Assembly (NCBI GenBank): GCA_001567485.1
Contig: JZRA01000092.1
Span: forward strand, 1-64,000
Direction of reading: 5' to 3'
Origin: Chloroflexi bacterium OLB13
GTDB lineage: Bacteria; Chloroflexota; Anaerolineae; Aggregatilineales; Phototrophicaceae
Length of the DNA: 64,000 nt
The translations under genes and the position numbers were made by a program. This document shows positions 41,203 through 45,994 of the stretch, in pieces. Position 1 is the first letter of the stretch; the number at the start of each line of letters is the position of its first letter. The notes below the pieces were generated by a model. That model saw only the letters and a list, made by a program, of their open reading frames with translations, searched no databases and was not told the origin of the DNA.

Positions 41203-41979
41203 ATGAATGATGATCGGCTTTCTCGACTTGAGGCGCGGCTCGAACAGTGGGTTGAAACCACGTTCGCGGCGGCATTCGGCTACAAGGTCAACGTATTCGA
41301 CCTTGCGCTGTATCTCGTGCGCGCGCTCGAAGAAGGACTCCGGCTCGATCCGACCGGCATCAACCGCCCGCTTGCGCCCGACAGCTACGTCCTTCAGATC
41401 GCCCCTGACCTGCATCAGAAGTTAGTCGCCAAGTATCCCGATTTAGCGGAACGGCTGTGCACGTACTTGATCACGCTGGCCTCACAGGCCGACTATCGCT
41501 TCAGCCGCGCGCCGTCGCTCCGGCTCATCGCGCAGGAAGGCGTCGCTATTCGCCGTCCGCTGGCGTTCGCAAACCACAGCGACGACACCAACGGCAGCAC
41601 GCTCGGCTTGACCGCGGTGACCATGCCGCTGACCGACTATCTGAGCCACAAGCCGCACCTGATCCTGAACGGCGGGACACGCGTCGATCTGGATAGGGAC
41701 ATCGTCAACGTCGGCCGTATGGTGGACAACGACGTGGTCGTCGATGATCCGTATGTCTCGCGTTATCACGCGCAAATCCGCCGCCGTGGCAACGAATTTC
41801 TCTTGTTCGACATCAACAGCTCGCGCGGCACGTCCGTGAACGGTATACGCGTGCGCGAACATCTGCTGCGCTCCGGAGACGTGGTCGATATCGGACGTTC
41901 ACGGCTGATCTACATCGACGACCGCCCCGACGACGACAACCATCACTCCCCGCCAACGGATACATTCGAAGGGTTATAA
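41203..41979 (+). CDS. FhaA-like protein: DUF3662 plus FHA domain
   Basis: 258 residues. The N-terminal FhaA_N/DUF3662 domain (LSRLEARLEQWVETTFAAAF ... YVLQIAPDLHQKL) is joined by a linker to a C-terminal FHA phosphothreonine-binding domain with Gly171-Arg172, Ser186-x-x-His189 and Asn213-Gly214 (VNVGRMVDN, VSRYHAQI, TSVNG), all the conserved contacts. In Actinobacteria, FhaA scaffolds cell-wall proteins such as MviN/MurJ on phosphorylation. Here it starts a locus with fhaB, a SEDS polymerase and a PBP-like gene; murJ lies 5 kb on. No Ser/Thr kinase is in the window. Confidence 0.87.
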   Translation: MNDDRLSRLEARLEQWVETTFAAAFGYKVNVFDLALYLVRALEEGLRLDPTGINRPLAPDSYVLQIAPDLHQKLVAKYPDLAERLCTYLITLASQADYRFSRAPSLRLIAQEGVAIRRPLAFANHSDDTNGSTLGLTAVTMPLTDYLSHKPHLILNGGTRVDLDRDIVNVGRMVDNDVVVDDPYVSRYHAQIRRRGNEFLLFDINSSRGTSVNGIRVREHLLRSGDVVDIGRSRLIYIDDRPDDDNHHSPPTDTFEGL

Positions 41980-41980
41980 A

Positions 41981-42430
41981 TTGGTGGACGCGGAGTTGAT
42001 CCTGTTCGGTCTGCGCGTCGCGTCGGCCGTATTGATTGTCGTGTTTGCCTGCGTAATCGGTTGGCTGCTCGTCCGCGAACTACGGGCCGCGGCGGCTGAG
42101 CATCAGGTACAGCGGCGATCCTTCGGCAGCCTCGTCGTGATGTTCGATGTCGACAGCAAGATGGTTCCGACCGGAAAACGTTTCCCACTGCTGCCGACGA
42201 CCAGCCTCGGCCGTTCGCCGACCAACACCATTCCGGTCGATGATAACTTCGCCAGCTCGGTTCACGCGACGATCACGCGACGCAGCGACCAGTGGTGGCT
42301 GGAAGATCGTCGCAGCCGGAACGGGACGACGCTCAACGGGATTCCGGTCGAAAAGCCTGCGATCATCACGCACGGCGACATCATCGGAATCGGCAAGATG
42401 CGGTACATGATCGAATTGATGGAGAACTAG
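41981..42430 (+). CDS. FhaB-like membrane-anchored FHA protein
   Basis: 149 residues. One N-terminal membrane helix (FGLRVASAVLIVVFACVIGWLL), then an FHA domain with LGRSPTNTIPVDDNFASSVH, RSRNGTTLNG and GDIIGIGKMRYMIEL; Arg, Ser/His and Asn contacts are present. It matches the FhaB (FipA) type that follows fhaA in Actinobacteria. The start is TTG 41981 or GTG 41984; AAGGG lies about seven bases before the TTG. Two bases separate it from fhaA, so the two are co-translated. Confidence 0.84.
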   Translation: MVDAELILFGLRVASAVLIVVFACVIGWLLVRELRAAAAEHQVQRRSFGSLVVMFDVDSKMVPTGKRFPLLPTTSLGRSPTNTIPVDDNFASSVHATITRRSDQWWLEDRRSRNGTTLNGIPVEKPAIITHGDIIGIGKMRYMIELMEN

Positions 42431-42433
42431 CGC

Positions 42434-43321
42434 ATGGCCGAAACGGCAGTGATCGGCGTCATCGGTGGCAGCGGCCTGTACAACATGCCGGAGATCAGCG
42501 ATAAGGTAAGCGTCACCGTATCGACCCCATTCGGGTCACCCAGCGGGTCAATCGTCATCGGGACACTGCGCGGCAAGCGTGTCGCGTTCCTCCCGCGCCA
42601 CGGCGAGGGTCACACGCTGCTCCCCTCAGAAGTCCCCTATCGGGCGAATATCTACGCGCTGAAGTCGCTCGGCGTGCGGTTCATTATCGCCGCCAACGCG
42701 TGCGGATCGCTGACCGAGTCGTACCGGCCGGGGCATCTCGCGCTGCCCGATCAGCTCTACGATAACACGCGCTCGGAACGCGGCGGGCGGACATTCTTCG
42801 GTGAGGGCATCGTCGGTCACGTATCGATGGCCGATCCCTTCAGCCCTGAACTGTCCGGCGTAATTGCGCGGGCGGCGGCGGCCCAAGTCCCTGATGCCGT
42901 GATTCACCGCGGCGGGCTGTTTGTGGTGATCGAAGGCCCGCGTTTCAGCACGCGGGGCGAAAGCCGAACCTACCGCGCATGGGGCGGCCAGTTGATCGGC
43001 ATGACGACCGCGCCCGAAGCATTTCTCGCCAACGAAGCCGAGATCGCCTACGCCGCCATCGCCCACATCACCGACTACGACGTATGGCACGAGTCCGAAG
43101 AGCCGGTTACGACGGAAATCGTCATGGCGACAATGGCGAAGAACATCGACCACGTTCAGCGCGTGATCGCCGCGGCCGTTGAGCGCCTCGACGTGAACGC
43201 AGACTACGCCGCGCATCACACGTTGGACAACGTCGTGATGACGGCGCGCGCGCGAATCCCCGCGGCGACGGCGGACAAGCTCAGGCTGCTGCTTGGCGCG
43301 CGGCTCGACCCGGGGACGTAA
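42434..43321 (+). CDS. mtnP: S-methyl-5'-thioadenosine phosphorylase
   Basis: 295 residues. Purine nucleoside phosphorylase family 2 of MTAP type: VIGVIGGSGLYNM, FLPRHGEGHTLLPSEVPYRA, ANACGSLTESYRPGHL, VVIEGPRFSTRGESRTYRAW and IGMTTAPEAFLANEAEIAYA. Cleaves methylthioadenosine to adenine and methylthioribose-1-phosphate. Three bases after fhaB. It is unrelated to cell wall work, so it interrupts an otherwise conserved cell-wall locus. Confidence 0.92.
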   Translation: MAETAVIGVIGGSGLYNMPEISDKVSVTVSTPFGSPSGSIVIGTLRGKRVAFLPRHGEGHTLLPSEVPYRANIYALKSLGVRFIIAANACGSLTESYRPGHLALPDQLYDNTRSERGGRTFFGEGIVGHVSMADPFSPELSGVIARAAAAQVPDAVIHRGGLFVVIEGPRFSTRGESRTYRAWGGQLIGMTTAPEAFLANEAEIAYAAIAHITDYDVWHESEEPVTTEIVMATMAKNIDHVQRVIAAAVERLDVNADYAAHHTLDNVVMTARARIPAATADKLRLLLGARLDPGT

Positions 43322-43330
43322 GGCGCTGCC

Positions 43331-44635
43331 GTGTCAAGCCATCGCTCGCTGAATCCCAGTCGTCACGAGGCTGTCGCCGAGCGTATCCTACTGGTCATCG
43401 CCGGCCTGTTCGTCGTCGTCAACCTCGCCGCACTCAACATTCTGCGCGGAGTCGGCTCGCAAGATTGGACGCCGATCCTCGTTTGGATCGCGGCGGCGGC
43501 TGGCGGCCACCTTGTGCTTGAACGCCGCCTACCCAACCACGATCCGCTGCTGTTCCCGCTGGTGATGATGCTCAGCGGCTTCGGGATCGCGGTTATCGAC
43601 CGTCTCGCCCCCGTGTTCGCTGACCGGCAGGCGGCGTGGCTGCTGCTGAGCACGGCGGCGCTCGTGTTCTCTGCGGCTTGGCCGACCGTGCTGCGGCTCC
43701 TGCGCGATTACCGGTACCTGCTGTTTTTCGGCGGGCTGGGACTGCTGCTCGCTTCTTTCGTGTTCGGCGTAAATCCGTCAGGTCAGCCGGGCGCGCCGAC
43801 ACTGTGGTTGGGGGCGTTCGGTCTGTACTTCCAACCGGCCGAAATCCTCAAAATCGTGCTGGTCGCTTTCCTTGCGAGCTACCTCGCCGAACAGTTTCCG
43901 CTGCTGTCAAGCGCGCGCGCAAACCGGGCGCTCGAAGGCAGTTTCCTATCGCCACGCCTGATCGGGCCGGTGCTGCTGATGTGGGGCATCTGTCTGCTGG
44001 TGTTGATCTGGCAGCGCGATCTTGGGGCGGCGCTCGTGTTCTTTCTGGTGTTTCTGCTGCTGCTGTATGCGGCTAGCGGACGTCTCTTGGTGCTCGTGGC
44101 CGGCGGTGTCCTGATCGTCGCAGCAGGTGTCCTCGCCTATTCGACGTTTCCCGTCGTCACACAGCGCGTCGACATCTGGATCGACCCGTGGTCGCGGGCC
44201 GAGGGCAGCGCCTATCAGATCGTGCAGAGTCTGATCGCTGTATCAGCGGGCGGGGCGTTCGGACAGGGCATTGGGCAGGGTTCGCCAGCCTATGTGCCTG
44301 TCGTGCACTCTGATGCAGTTTACGCAGCGGTAGCCGAAGAATGGGGGCTGCTGGGGGCGGCGTTCATCGTCTTGATGCTGCTGGTGCTGGTTGCTCGGGG
44401 TCTTCGCGTAGGTATCCGCCTGACGGATCGGCCGTTCTCGGCGCTGCTCTCAACCGGCTTGACGCTCGTGATCGGCGTGCAGAGCCTGCTCATTCTCGGC
44501 GGCGTGATGCGCCTGATCCCGCTGACCGGCATTACGCTGCCGTTCGTCAGCTACGGCGGCAGCTCCCTGCTGGTGTCGTTCGTCATGGTCGGGGTGCTGC
44601 TGCGCCTGTCCGCCGAGGATCCTTATGCGATTTGA
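43331..44635 (+). CDS. FtsW/RodA/SpoVE-family (SEDS) peptidoglycan polymerase
   Basis: 434 residues, about ten membrane segments. SEDS signatures: YFQPAEILKIVLVAFLASYL, IWQRDLGAALVFF, VHSDAVYAAVAEEWGLLGA (holding the conserved extracellular Asp) and PLTGITLPFVSYGGSSLLVS. These proteins polymerise glycan strands from lipid II and work with a class B PBP. The start is GTG 43331. It overlaps the PBP-like gene by 11 bases, the standard pairing. Confidence 0.9.
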   Translation: MSSHRSLNPSRHEAVAERILLVIAGLFVVVNLAALNILRGVGSQDWTPILVWIAAAAGGHLVLERRLPNHDPLLFPLVMMLSGFGIAVIDRLAPVFADRQAAWLLLSTAALVFSAAWPTVLRLLRDYRYLLFFGGLGLLLASFVFGVNPSGQPGAPTLWLGAFGLYFQPAEILKIVLVAFLASYLAEQFPLLSSARANRALEGSFLSPRLIGPVLLMWGICLLVLIWQRDLGAALVFFLVFLLLLYAASGRLLVLVAGGVLIVAAGVLAYSTFPVVTQRVDIWIDPWSRAEGSAYQIVQSLIAVSAGGAFGQGIGQGSPAYVPVVHSDAVYAAVAEEWGLLGAAFIVLMLLVLVARGLRVGIRLTDRPFSALLSTGLTLVIGVQSLLILGGVMRLIPLTGITLPFVSYGGSSLLVSFVMVGVLLRLSAEDPYAI

Positions 44636-45994
44636 CACGTCGCTTCAGCGGTTATTCATCGCGCTCGCGCTGGCGTTCACAGCGGTGCTTCTCGCCACCA
44701 GCTATTGGGCAATCGCCGGCCCGGAGACCGTCTTGCGAGGGCCGTATAACTACCGTCTCCGTGACGATGCGGCGCGTATCGTGCGCGGCACAATCCTTGA
44801 CCGTGACGGCGATATCCTGACGGTGTCCGCCCTTGATGAGAATGGACGGGTGACGCGCGCTCCGATTACGGCCGACCTGTTCGCGCTTATCGGATATTCG
44901 AGCCTTCAGTACGGCACAAGTGGCGTCGAGAACGCATTCGATGCCCAGTTAACCGGCGCTGACCTGTACAGCCCGCTTGAAGCGAGATACGGCATAACCT
45001 CCTGCACTATCCGCGCGTCGGCAGTGATGTCAAGCTCTCGATCGACGACACCGTTCAGCGCGCAGCATGGCACGCGCTCGCTGACGATCCCGGTGGCGCG
45101 GTCGTCCTTGATCCAGCGAGCGGCGACGTGTTGGCGCTGGTCAGTCAGCCGAGCGTTGACCCGGCGACGCTTGACGCCGACTGGGCGCGGCTTGTCCAGT
45201 CGCCGGATAACCCGTTCGTGAACCGCGCGGTGCAGGGCGCGTATCCATCCTCCATCGCCGAGCGTATCACCGCGCTGGCGGCGTGGCTGGTCGACGGACG
45301 CACGCGCGACACAACCGTCGAACGGACGGTGATCGGCTGCGGACGCGCAGACACACCGCTCATTTCGATTGCAGACGCCTTTGTGGAGGGCTGCCCCGGA
45401 TTGACCGGCTGGATCACGGAACAGGTCGGGGCCACGCGCATGGGCGAAGTACGTGCGCTGTTCGGCCTAGACACGCGCACCAGTCTGCCAGGGTTCGACG
45501 CCGCCCCGATCCCGACTACGGATCAGCCGGAGACAGCGACTCAGGATATCGTGAGCCTCCGGTCGCCGCTTGATCTCGCCGTGATGATCGCGACACTCGA
45601 AAATGATGGGAACGCCCCGGCCCCGTCTCTGCTTGCAAGTGCGCGACCACCGGGGAAGACAGAATTCGTCACGATACGGCCCGCGGAGGCCTCACGGGCG
45701 GTGGTGACATCGACGATCGCCCGCACACTAGCAAGCGTGCTGCGGCGGATTGGCACAGCCGCGCTCGACGATGTGAACCTGCCGTGTACGCTGCAAGATC
45801 CTGCGCTTTATGTCTCGTCGGATCGACAGGGGGATACGCTGGTGCGTTCGGTCATCGCGGCATTCGCGACGGAGGATGGACAGACGCGGGCGTTGGCAAT
45901 GATCGTCGAGCAGCAGCTTGACGCGGAAGACGATCTCGCCGCGCGCGCGGCAGTGTTGATGTGCGCGGTTCAGGACGCCGCAGAACGCGACTGA
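44625..45994 (+). CDS. PBP2-like protein lacking catalytic motifs, apparent frameshift
   Basis: Two frames join near 44975-45000. The second begins NLLHYPRVGSDVKLSIDDTV, and one missing base restores a protein of about 456 residues. An N-terminal membrane helix (FIALALAFTAVLLATSYWAI) is followed by a class-B-PBP N-domain (RGTILDRDGDILTVS, IGYSSLQYGTSGVENAFDAQ), then a transpeptidase-like domain (GGAVVLDPASGDVLALVSQP, NPFVNRAVQGAYPSS). Where family members have the SxxK nucleophile (YPPGSTFK-like) this has YPSSIAERI. No SxN or KTG motif is found at the expected places (EGCPGLTGW; PCTLQDPALYVSS). So it is probably catalytically dead. Its stop overlaps the convergent gene by 25 bases. Confidence 0.78.

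Follow-up and report, generated by a model that had tools for sequence, protein, structure and literature searches.

The pseudo-PBP gene and its operon

The window, i.e., the whole stretch of 64,000 nucleotides that was analyzed (Chloroflexi bacterium OLB13, contig JZRA01000092.1), encodes on its forward strand a class B PBP of the PbpA type, the start codon of which lies within the 3' end of a gene for a SEDS glycan polymerase. The features of the locus are as follows.

41203..43321, + strand: FhaA, FhaB, and MTAP-type phosphorylase, conserved upstream operon genes (PF12401+PF00498, PF00498, and PF01048, respectively)
43331..44635, + strand: SEDS (FtsW/RodA) glycan polymerase, the partner gene (PF01098, 224 bits)
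44625-45994, + strand: pseudo-PBP gene, PbpA-type class B PBP; its ATG overlaps the 3' end of the SEDS gene 43331-44635
44625..44992, + strand: first part of the pseudo-PBP, TM helix and pedestal/dimerisation domain (PBP_dimer_2)
44981..44999, + strand: frameshift site, frame 1 to frame 3 (the relatives' profile matches 44625-44981, then 44981-45976)
44996..45994, + strand: second part of the pseudo-PBP, remaining pedestal and dead transpeptidase domain (PF00905), frame open to 45994
45242..45265, + strand: former SxxK nucleophile motif, now YPSSIAER, the Ser and Lys columns being occupied by I and R
45338..45340, + strand: Cys conserved in the dead clade (92/93) at column 249 of the profile; a disulfide with column 268 is proposed
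45389..45397, + strand: former SxN motif, now G-C-P, from the alignment with dead and intact relatives
45809..45820, + strand: former KTG region, now Y-V-S-S (columns 419-422; alignment less certain)

The class B PBP architecture, consisting of a TM anchor, a pedestal, and the PF00905 fold, was recognized as the original prediction had proposed. Namely, the PbpA-subfamily domain PBP_dimer_2 scored 30.2 bits in the first frame (cut-off 27; 28.7 and 37.5 bits in close relatives), Transpeptidase PF00905 scored 49.8 bits in the second (cut-off 22.1), and the AlphaFold model of a relative, described below, was consistent with the same architecture. The frame of 44625 continues as nonsense until 45221, the second frame runs open through 331 codons, and the codon-position GC was of the coding type in both parts. 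The frameshift was absent from all 29 relatives of the same family and order (alignment A1). As all the motif positions lie 3' of the shift, the motif loss falls within the intact second frame and is unaffected by it, which had also been anticipated.

Hereafter, PBPs without the three catalytic motifs are referred to as dead and those with them as intact. Among the dead-clade loci with enough upstream DNA, FhaA and FhaB were found in 53/63 and MTAP in 59/63, the recurrent order being SurA-like, FhaA, FhaB, MTAP, SEDS, and dead PBP, and a C39-type protein and MurJ being close by. The PbpA-type location, by a SEDS gene and 3' of FhaA/FhaB, was found in the window and in those 53 of the 63 loci. 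The MTAP-type phosphorylase (42434-43321 of the window), which stands between FhaB and the SEDS gene, has no obvious link to the cell wall.

The SEDS protein of the window keeps the AEE, G371, and YGG residues and the equivalent of D297 of E. coli FtsW, which lies within H-T-D and is the presumed catalytic residue (PMC8765783). Because D297 falls in this retained H-T-D, the idea that the DPWSRAEGSAYQ stretch of the window SEDS marks a lost catalytic Asp was rejected. The D297 equivalent was Asp in all 177 of the 177 distinct SEDS partners (94/94 dead, 26/26 dead-fused, and 57/57 intact). In the QRDLG motif, the equivalent of E. coli FtsW P196, at which P196T is dominant negative (PMC8765783), was found to be Arg, Lys, Gln, or Asn throughout the subfamily, whether the PBP was dead or intact.

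Extent and origin of the motif loss

In the alignment, the columns of SxxK, SxN, and KTG in the window copy read YPSSIAER, GCP, and YVSS, in agreement with the earlier claim that all three motifs were lost. No KTG-like motif was found at the proper place in any frame near the gene, and the possibility that catalytic motifs lie elsewhere within the protein was rejected, as none was found at the right position. The homologue alignment proposed as a check further revealed that the three motifs are absent from 29/29 full homologues of the same family and order, whose consensus reads YQPGGxLQ at SxxK, xCPxPF at SxN, and GGHxxLAYSG at KTG. The loss at the nucleophile site was thereby borne out, whereas the contrast drawn with relatives reading YPPGSTFK did not hold for the family and order; likewise, the dead class B PBP by the SEDS gene is real but not peculiar to the window gene, the loss being clade-wide. 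Since the family and order relatives share the altered consensus, the loss was judged to be ancestral.

In a larger set of 110 distinct dead relatives and 87 intact Chloroflexota orthologues, the majority of the latter located by a SEDS gene, PGSxxK was present in 87/87 intact versus 0/110 dead sequences, and KTG in 87/87 intact ones. Column by column, the S and K of SxxK were retained in 87/87 intact orthologues and the Lys in 0/109 dead ones; at SxN, S (87/87) and N (87/87) of the intact proteins were opposed to Cys (95/95) and, in place of Asn, Pro (93/95) in the dead clade; and the Lys of KTG occurred in 98% of the intact and 2% of the dead sequences. A sequencing or alignment artefact might be suspected from the fragmented assembly (148 contigs) and the frameshift within the gene; however, the same loss is common to about a hundred other genomes in which the frames are intact, and we thus attach practically no weight to this explanation. 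Chance or artefact was ruled out by these dead relatives.

A search of 60 related genomes gave matches in nearly all of them, and 80 loci were recovered in a scan of named genomes. Every one of these loci was dead, and the source was in nearly all cases a MAG with the label Chloroflexi, Anaerolineae, Aggregatilineales, Ardenticatenia, or Thermoflexales; the scan pattern contained YQ and hence favoured dead members. The samples of the class and of the phylum were drawn evenly, but with a search profile built from dead members. At the threshold applied, some genomes of the class yielded no orthologue, and many weaker matches represented other PBPs. In the window's own class, dead members predominated, and the intact ones belonged to families f11, f13, f93, and f124. 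Other Chloroflexota classes have intact orthologues (YxPGSTFK, SxN, and KTGT), many of which lie directly 3' of a SEDS gene.

In a 78-row tree constructed with the motif columns removed, a single state change was sufficient, the dead rows making up one side of a branch (SH-aLRT 87) that is adjoined by the intact L128 and L137 of the same class, and a FastTree of all 201 rows agreed on the dead grouping (support 0.965). Judged from these trees, the dead state is one clade that stems from a single loss and is nested inside the intact orthologues. A dead fused SEDS-PBP, L163, from a genome coded to another class (G071) took a basal position in the dead clade, for which early branching, transfer, or taxonomy could be the cause. 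Another close dead-clade locus (L059) lies on a contig titled Bacteroidetes bacterium (JAPUDW010000283.1), probably a mislabelled bin. In the literature searched, which was limited to open-licence papers with partial coverage, no account of a naturally dead clade of class B PBPs was found.

Constraint and structure of the dead PBP

The dead PBPs have lost eleven columns whose residue is fixed to at least 90% in the intact orthologues, and these comprise the catalytic residues and adjacent positions (S212, F214, K215, T218, S267, N269, A273, A326, K419, G421, and T422). A smaller set, including Q209, C249, P269, and W372, is instead fixed in the dead clade, and both groups have kept F272, G331, Q332, G353, W432, and E452. 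When pairs were compared at a SEDS identity of 50-55%, the identity of the N half was 41.8% for dead pairs versus 42.1% for intact pairs, while that of the C half was 28.2% versus 41.1%. The equal conservation of the N half at matched SEDS divergence implied that selection on the TM and pedestal half has not been measurably changed by the catalytic loss. As estimated from these identities, relaxation is confined to the catalytic half of the dead PBP.

The Cys at column 268 was invariant in the dead clade (95/95), which could be taken to mean that cross-linking persists via an unorthodox nucleophile, such as this residue at the old SxN position. This explanation is very improbable in our view, because the Lys and KTG columns are also gone, a Cys at column 249 is co-conserved (92/93 dead versus 20/87 intact), and a Cys at column 268 also occurs in 37/87 intact orthologues as the middle residue of S-C-N. 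The co-conserved C249 together with the Cys of the intact S-C-N fits a disulfide, and a C249-C268 disulfide in the dead clade is thus our inference.

For L012, a dead member of the window's family, AlphaFold predicted a complete fold (pLDDT 90.9), the best solved match of which was M. tuberculosis PbpA (Z 44.9, rmsd 2.2 over 391 residues). That most of the clade still has a folded transpeptidase domain suggests a role of this domain beyond support of the pedestal. The domain might have been repurposed for binding or sensing of a stem peptide, nascent glycan, or regulator, the fold being kept for that function and not for SEDS activation alone, and the complete model fold, the six positions kept in both groups, and the new near-invariant residues in the dead pocket (Q209, C249/C268, P269, and W372) are all consistent with this. 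Nevertheless, for a given SEDS divergence, evolution of the C half is faster, there is no ligand evidence, and in the fused forms of another family (f9) Pfam recognizes the pedestal but only the first 42-45 transpeptidase positions; we hence regard such repurposing as rather unlikely.

The window copy itself had the longest end branch in the whole-set tree (1.33), and in a pruned tree its end branch was 1.23 versus 0.36 and 0.52 in the same-genus sisters. Its identity to relatives was on average 7.5 points below the SEDS-based expectation, the lowest of the members compared, and 8 of 48 family invariants were lost, all at or after the dead site. By branch length and identity, the window copy is evolving faster than its sisters and is the most diverged of the clade. 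Combined with the frameshift, these features would fit a decaying pseudogene, in which relaxed selection was followed by a real frameshift and SEDS was left to work alone or with another class B PBP. On the other hand, no family invariant up to column 208 has been lost from the copy, those 3' of the shift included, its 331-codon frame with coding-type GC is open, and it comes from an assembly in which an error cannot be excluded. The invariants kept on both sides of the shift and the coding-type GC pointed to either a recent frameshift or an assembly error. Decay of the gene remains possible but doubtful. This possibility concerns the window copy only and is compatible with the family-level explanation given below. 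Being frameshifted and the fastest-evolving member, the window copy is a poor exemplar, and the family-level conclusion is independent of it.

Partnership with SEDS and proposed function

At 27 loci, 26 of which were dead, a single ORF with no intervening stop gave both the SEDS and the PBP match, and further cases were found later. One in-frame fusion (L155) carries a catalytically intact PBP, indicating that fusion and catalytic loss are separable. A natural 910-aa SEDS-PBP fusion was modelled by AlphaFold with a pLDDT of 92.5 and a pTM of 0.88; these model scores, and nothing beyond them, speak for a definite predicted arrangement of the SEDS and PBP halves. In the fold search of this fusion, the listed chains matched the PBP half only, and the search hence provided no test of the complex geometry.

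The genome of the window encodes three SEDS proteins. Its intact PBPs number four of class B (L001-L004) and two of class A (L005 and L006), and five YkuD-type L,D-transpeptidase candidates are present as well. The search for other class B PBPs with intact motifs, which the original prediction had called for, thus succeeded, and these PBPs and YkuD candidates indicated that cross-linking capacity is present elsewhere in the genome. The same genome contains a class A PBP-like protein of ~1410 aa (L009; G000:C86:12457-13116) whose transpeptidase motifs are lost (QPGGAIAPI, ANQL, and VAATNQ); in its GT51 region, STRNPTF takes the place of the TEDxxF of the paralogues. Most of its relatives have intact transpeptidase motifs; L258, L262, L266, L270, L271, and L279 look degenerate, which suggests repeated losses.

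At the family level, the presence of a pseudo-transpeptidase beside or fused to an apparently active SEDS is strongly supported by the sequence comparisons. An activator or scaffold function of the dead PBP, as originally put forward, fitted the data best, since the dead clade spans the class, the place in the operon is conserved, the SEDS Asp is kept, the constraint on the SEDS-contacting half is unchanged, and fusions are recurrent; such a function is likely, activation itself being an inference. Our preferred explanation, which we consider probable, is that the lineage lost transpeptidation once and was kept as a non-catalytic SEDS partner. Under this explanation, a single event in an ancestor shared by much of the window's class would have deprived a PbpA-type lineage of its transpeptidase activity; docking of the TM helix and pedestal on SEDS would hold the polymerase in, or switch it to, the active state; the dead transpeptidase domain may persist as a folded cap or docking surface; and glycan strands from the SEDS-dead PBP pair would be cross-linked by other enzymes. 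Complex formation, activation, and cross-linking elsewhere are all inferred, with no activity or binding data. Activation of SEDS by bPBPs has been located at the pedestal-ECL4 contact, and thus FtsI homologues can be essential even though their own transpeptidation is dispensable (PMC8078798). In E. coli, the TM helix of PBP2 alone already stimulates RodA (PMC10449877), and the need for the pedestal is therefore not universal.

Among known systems, M. tuberculosis PbpA was the best sequence and fold match to the dead clade, with which it shares the short pedestal, the adjoining SEDS gene, and PBP_dimer_2. The mycobacterial PbpA/RodA operon also has FHA-domain genes upstream, as in the dead clade. 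RodA and PbpA are located with pkn genes in mycobacteria (PMC3601408). Unlike the dead clade, which is without all three motifs, M. tuberculosis PbpA has retained SxxK, SCN, and KTG, and beta-lactams acylate it. Division is still supported by B. subtilis PBP2B and S. aureus PBP1 when they carry catalytic mutations, another PBP then performing the cross-linking (PMC8078798; PMC9426605), although the dispensability of PBP1 transpeptidation depends on a strain background with PBP2A (PMC9426605). The likeness is that a class B PBP is needed beyond its own transpeptidation; the difference is that those are laboratory mutants of active enzymes, whereas the inactive state of the dead clade is natural, ancient, and fixed. 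The RodA-PBP2 and FtsW-FtsI complexes and natural SEDS-PBP fusion ORFs (PMC10449877) resemble the dead clade in that SEDS is paired or fused with a class B PBP, but the described pairs contain an active transpeptidase and the fusions found here mostly a dead one.

The action of class B PBPs as SEDS activators apart from their own cross-linking has so far been argued from mutants. The dead clade represents a natural separation of the two roles, in which the catalytic residues were removed while the polymerase-contacting half and the polymerase were kept, and its fused single-chain members are directly usable in lipid II assays and structures. On balance, we lean toward the view that, in a large Chloroflexota lineage, SEDS is permanently paired with a pseudo-transpeptidase, often within one polypeptide, and that these pairs would constitute natural SEDS-activator complexes in which polymerisation is uncoupled from cross-linking by the partner.
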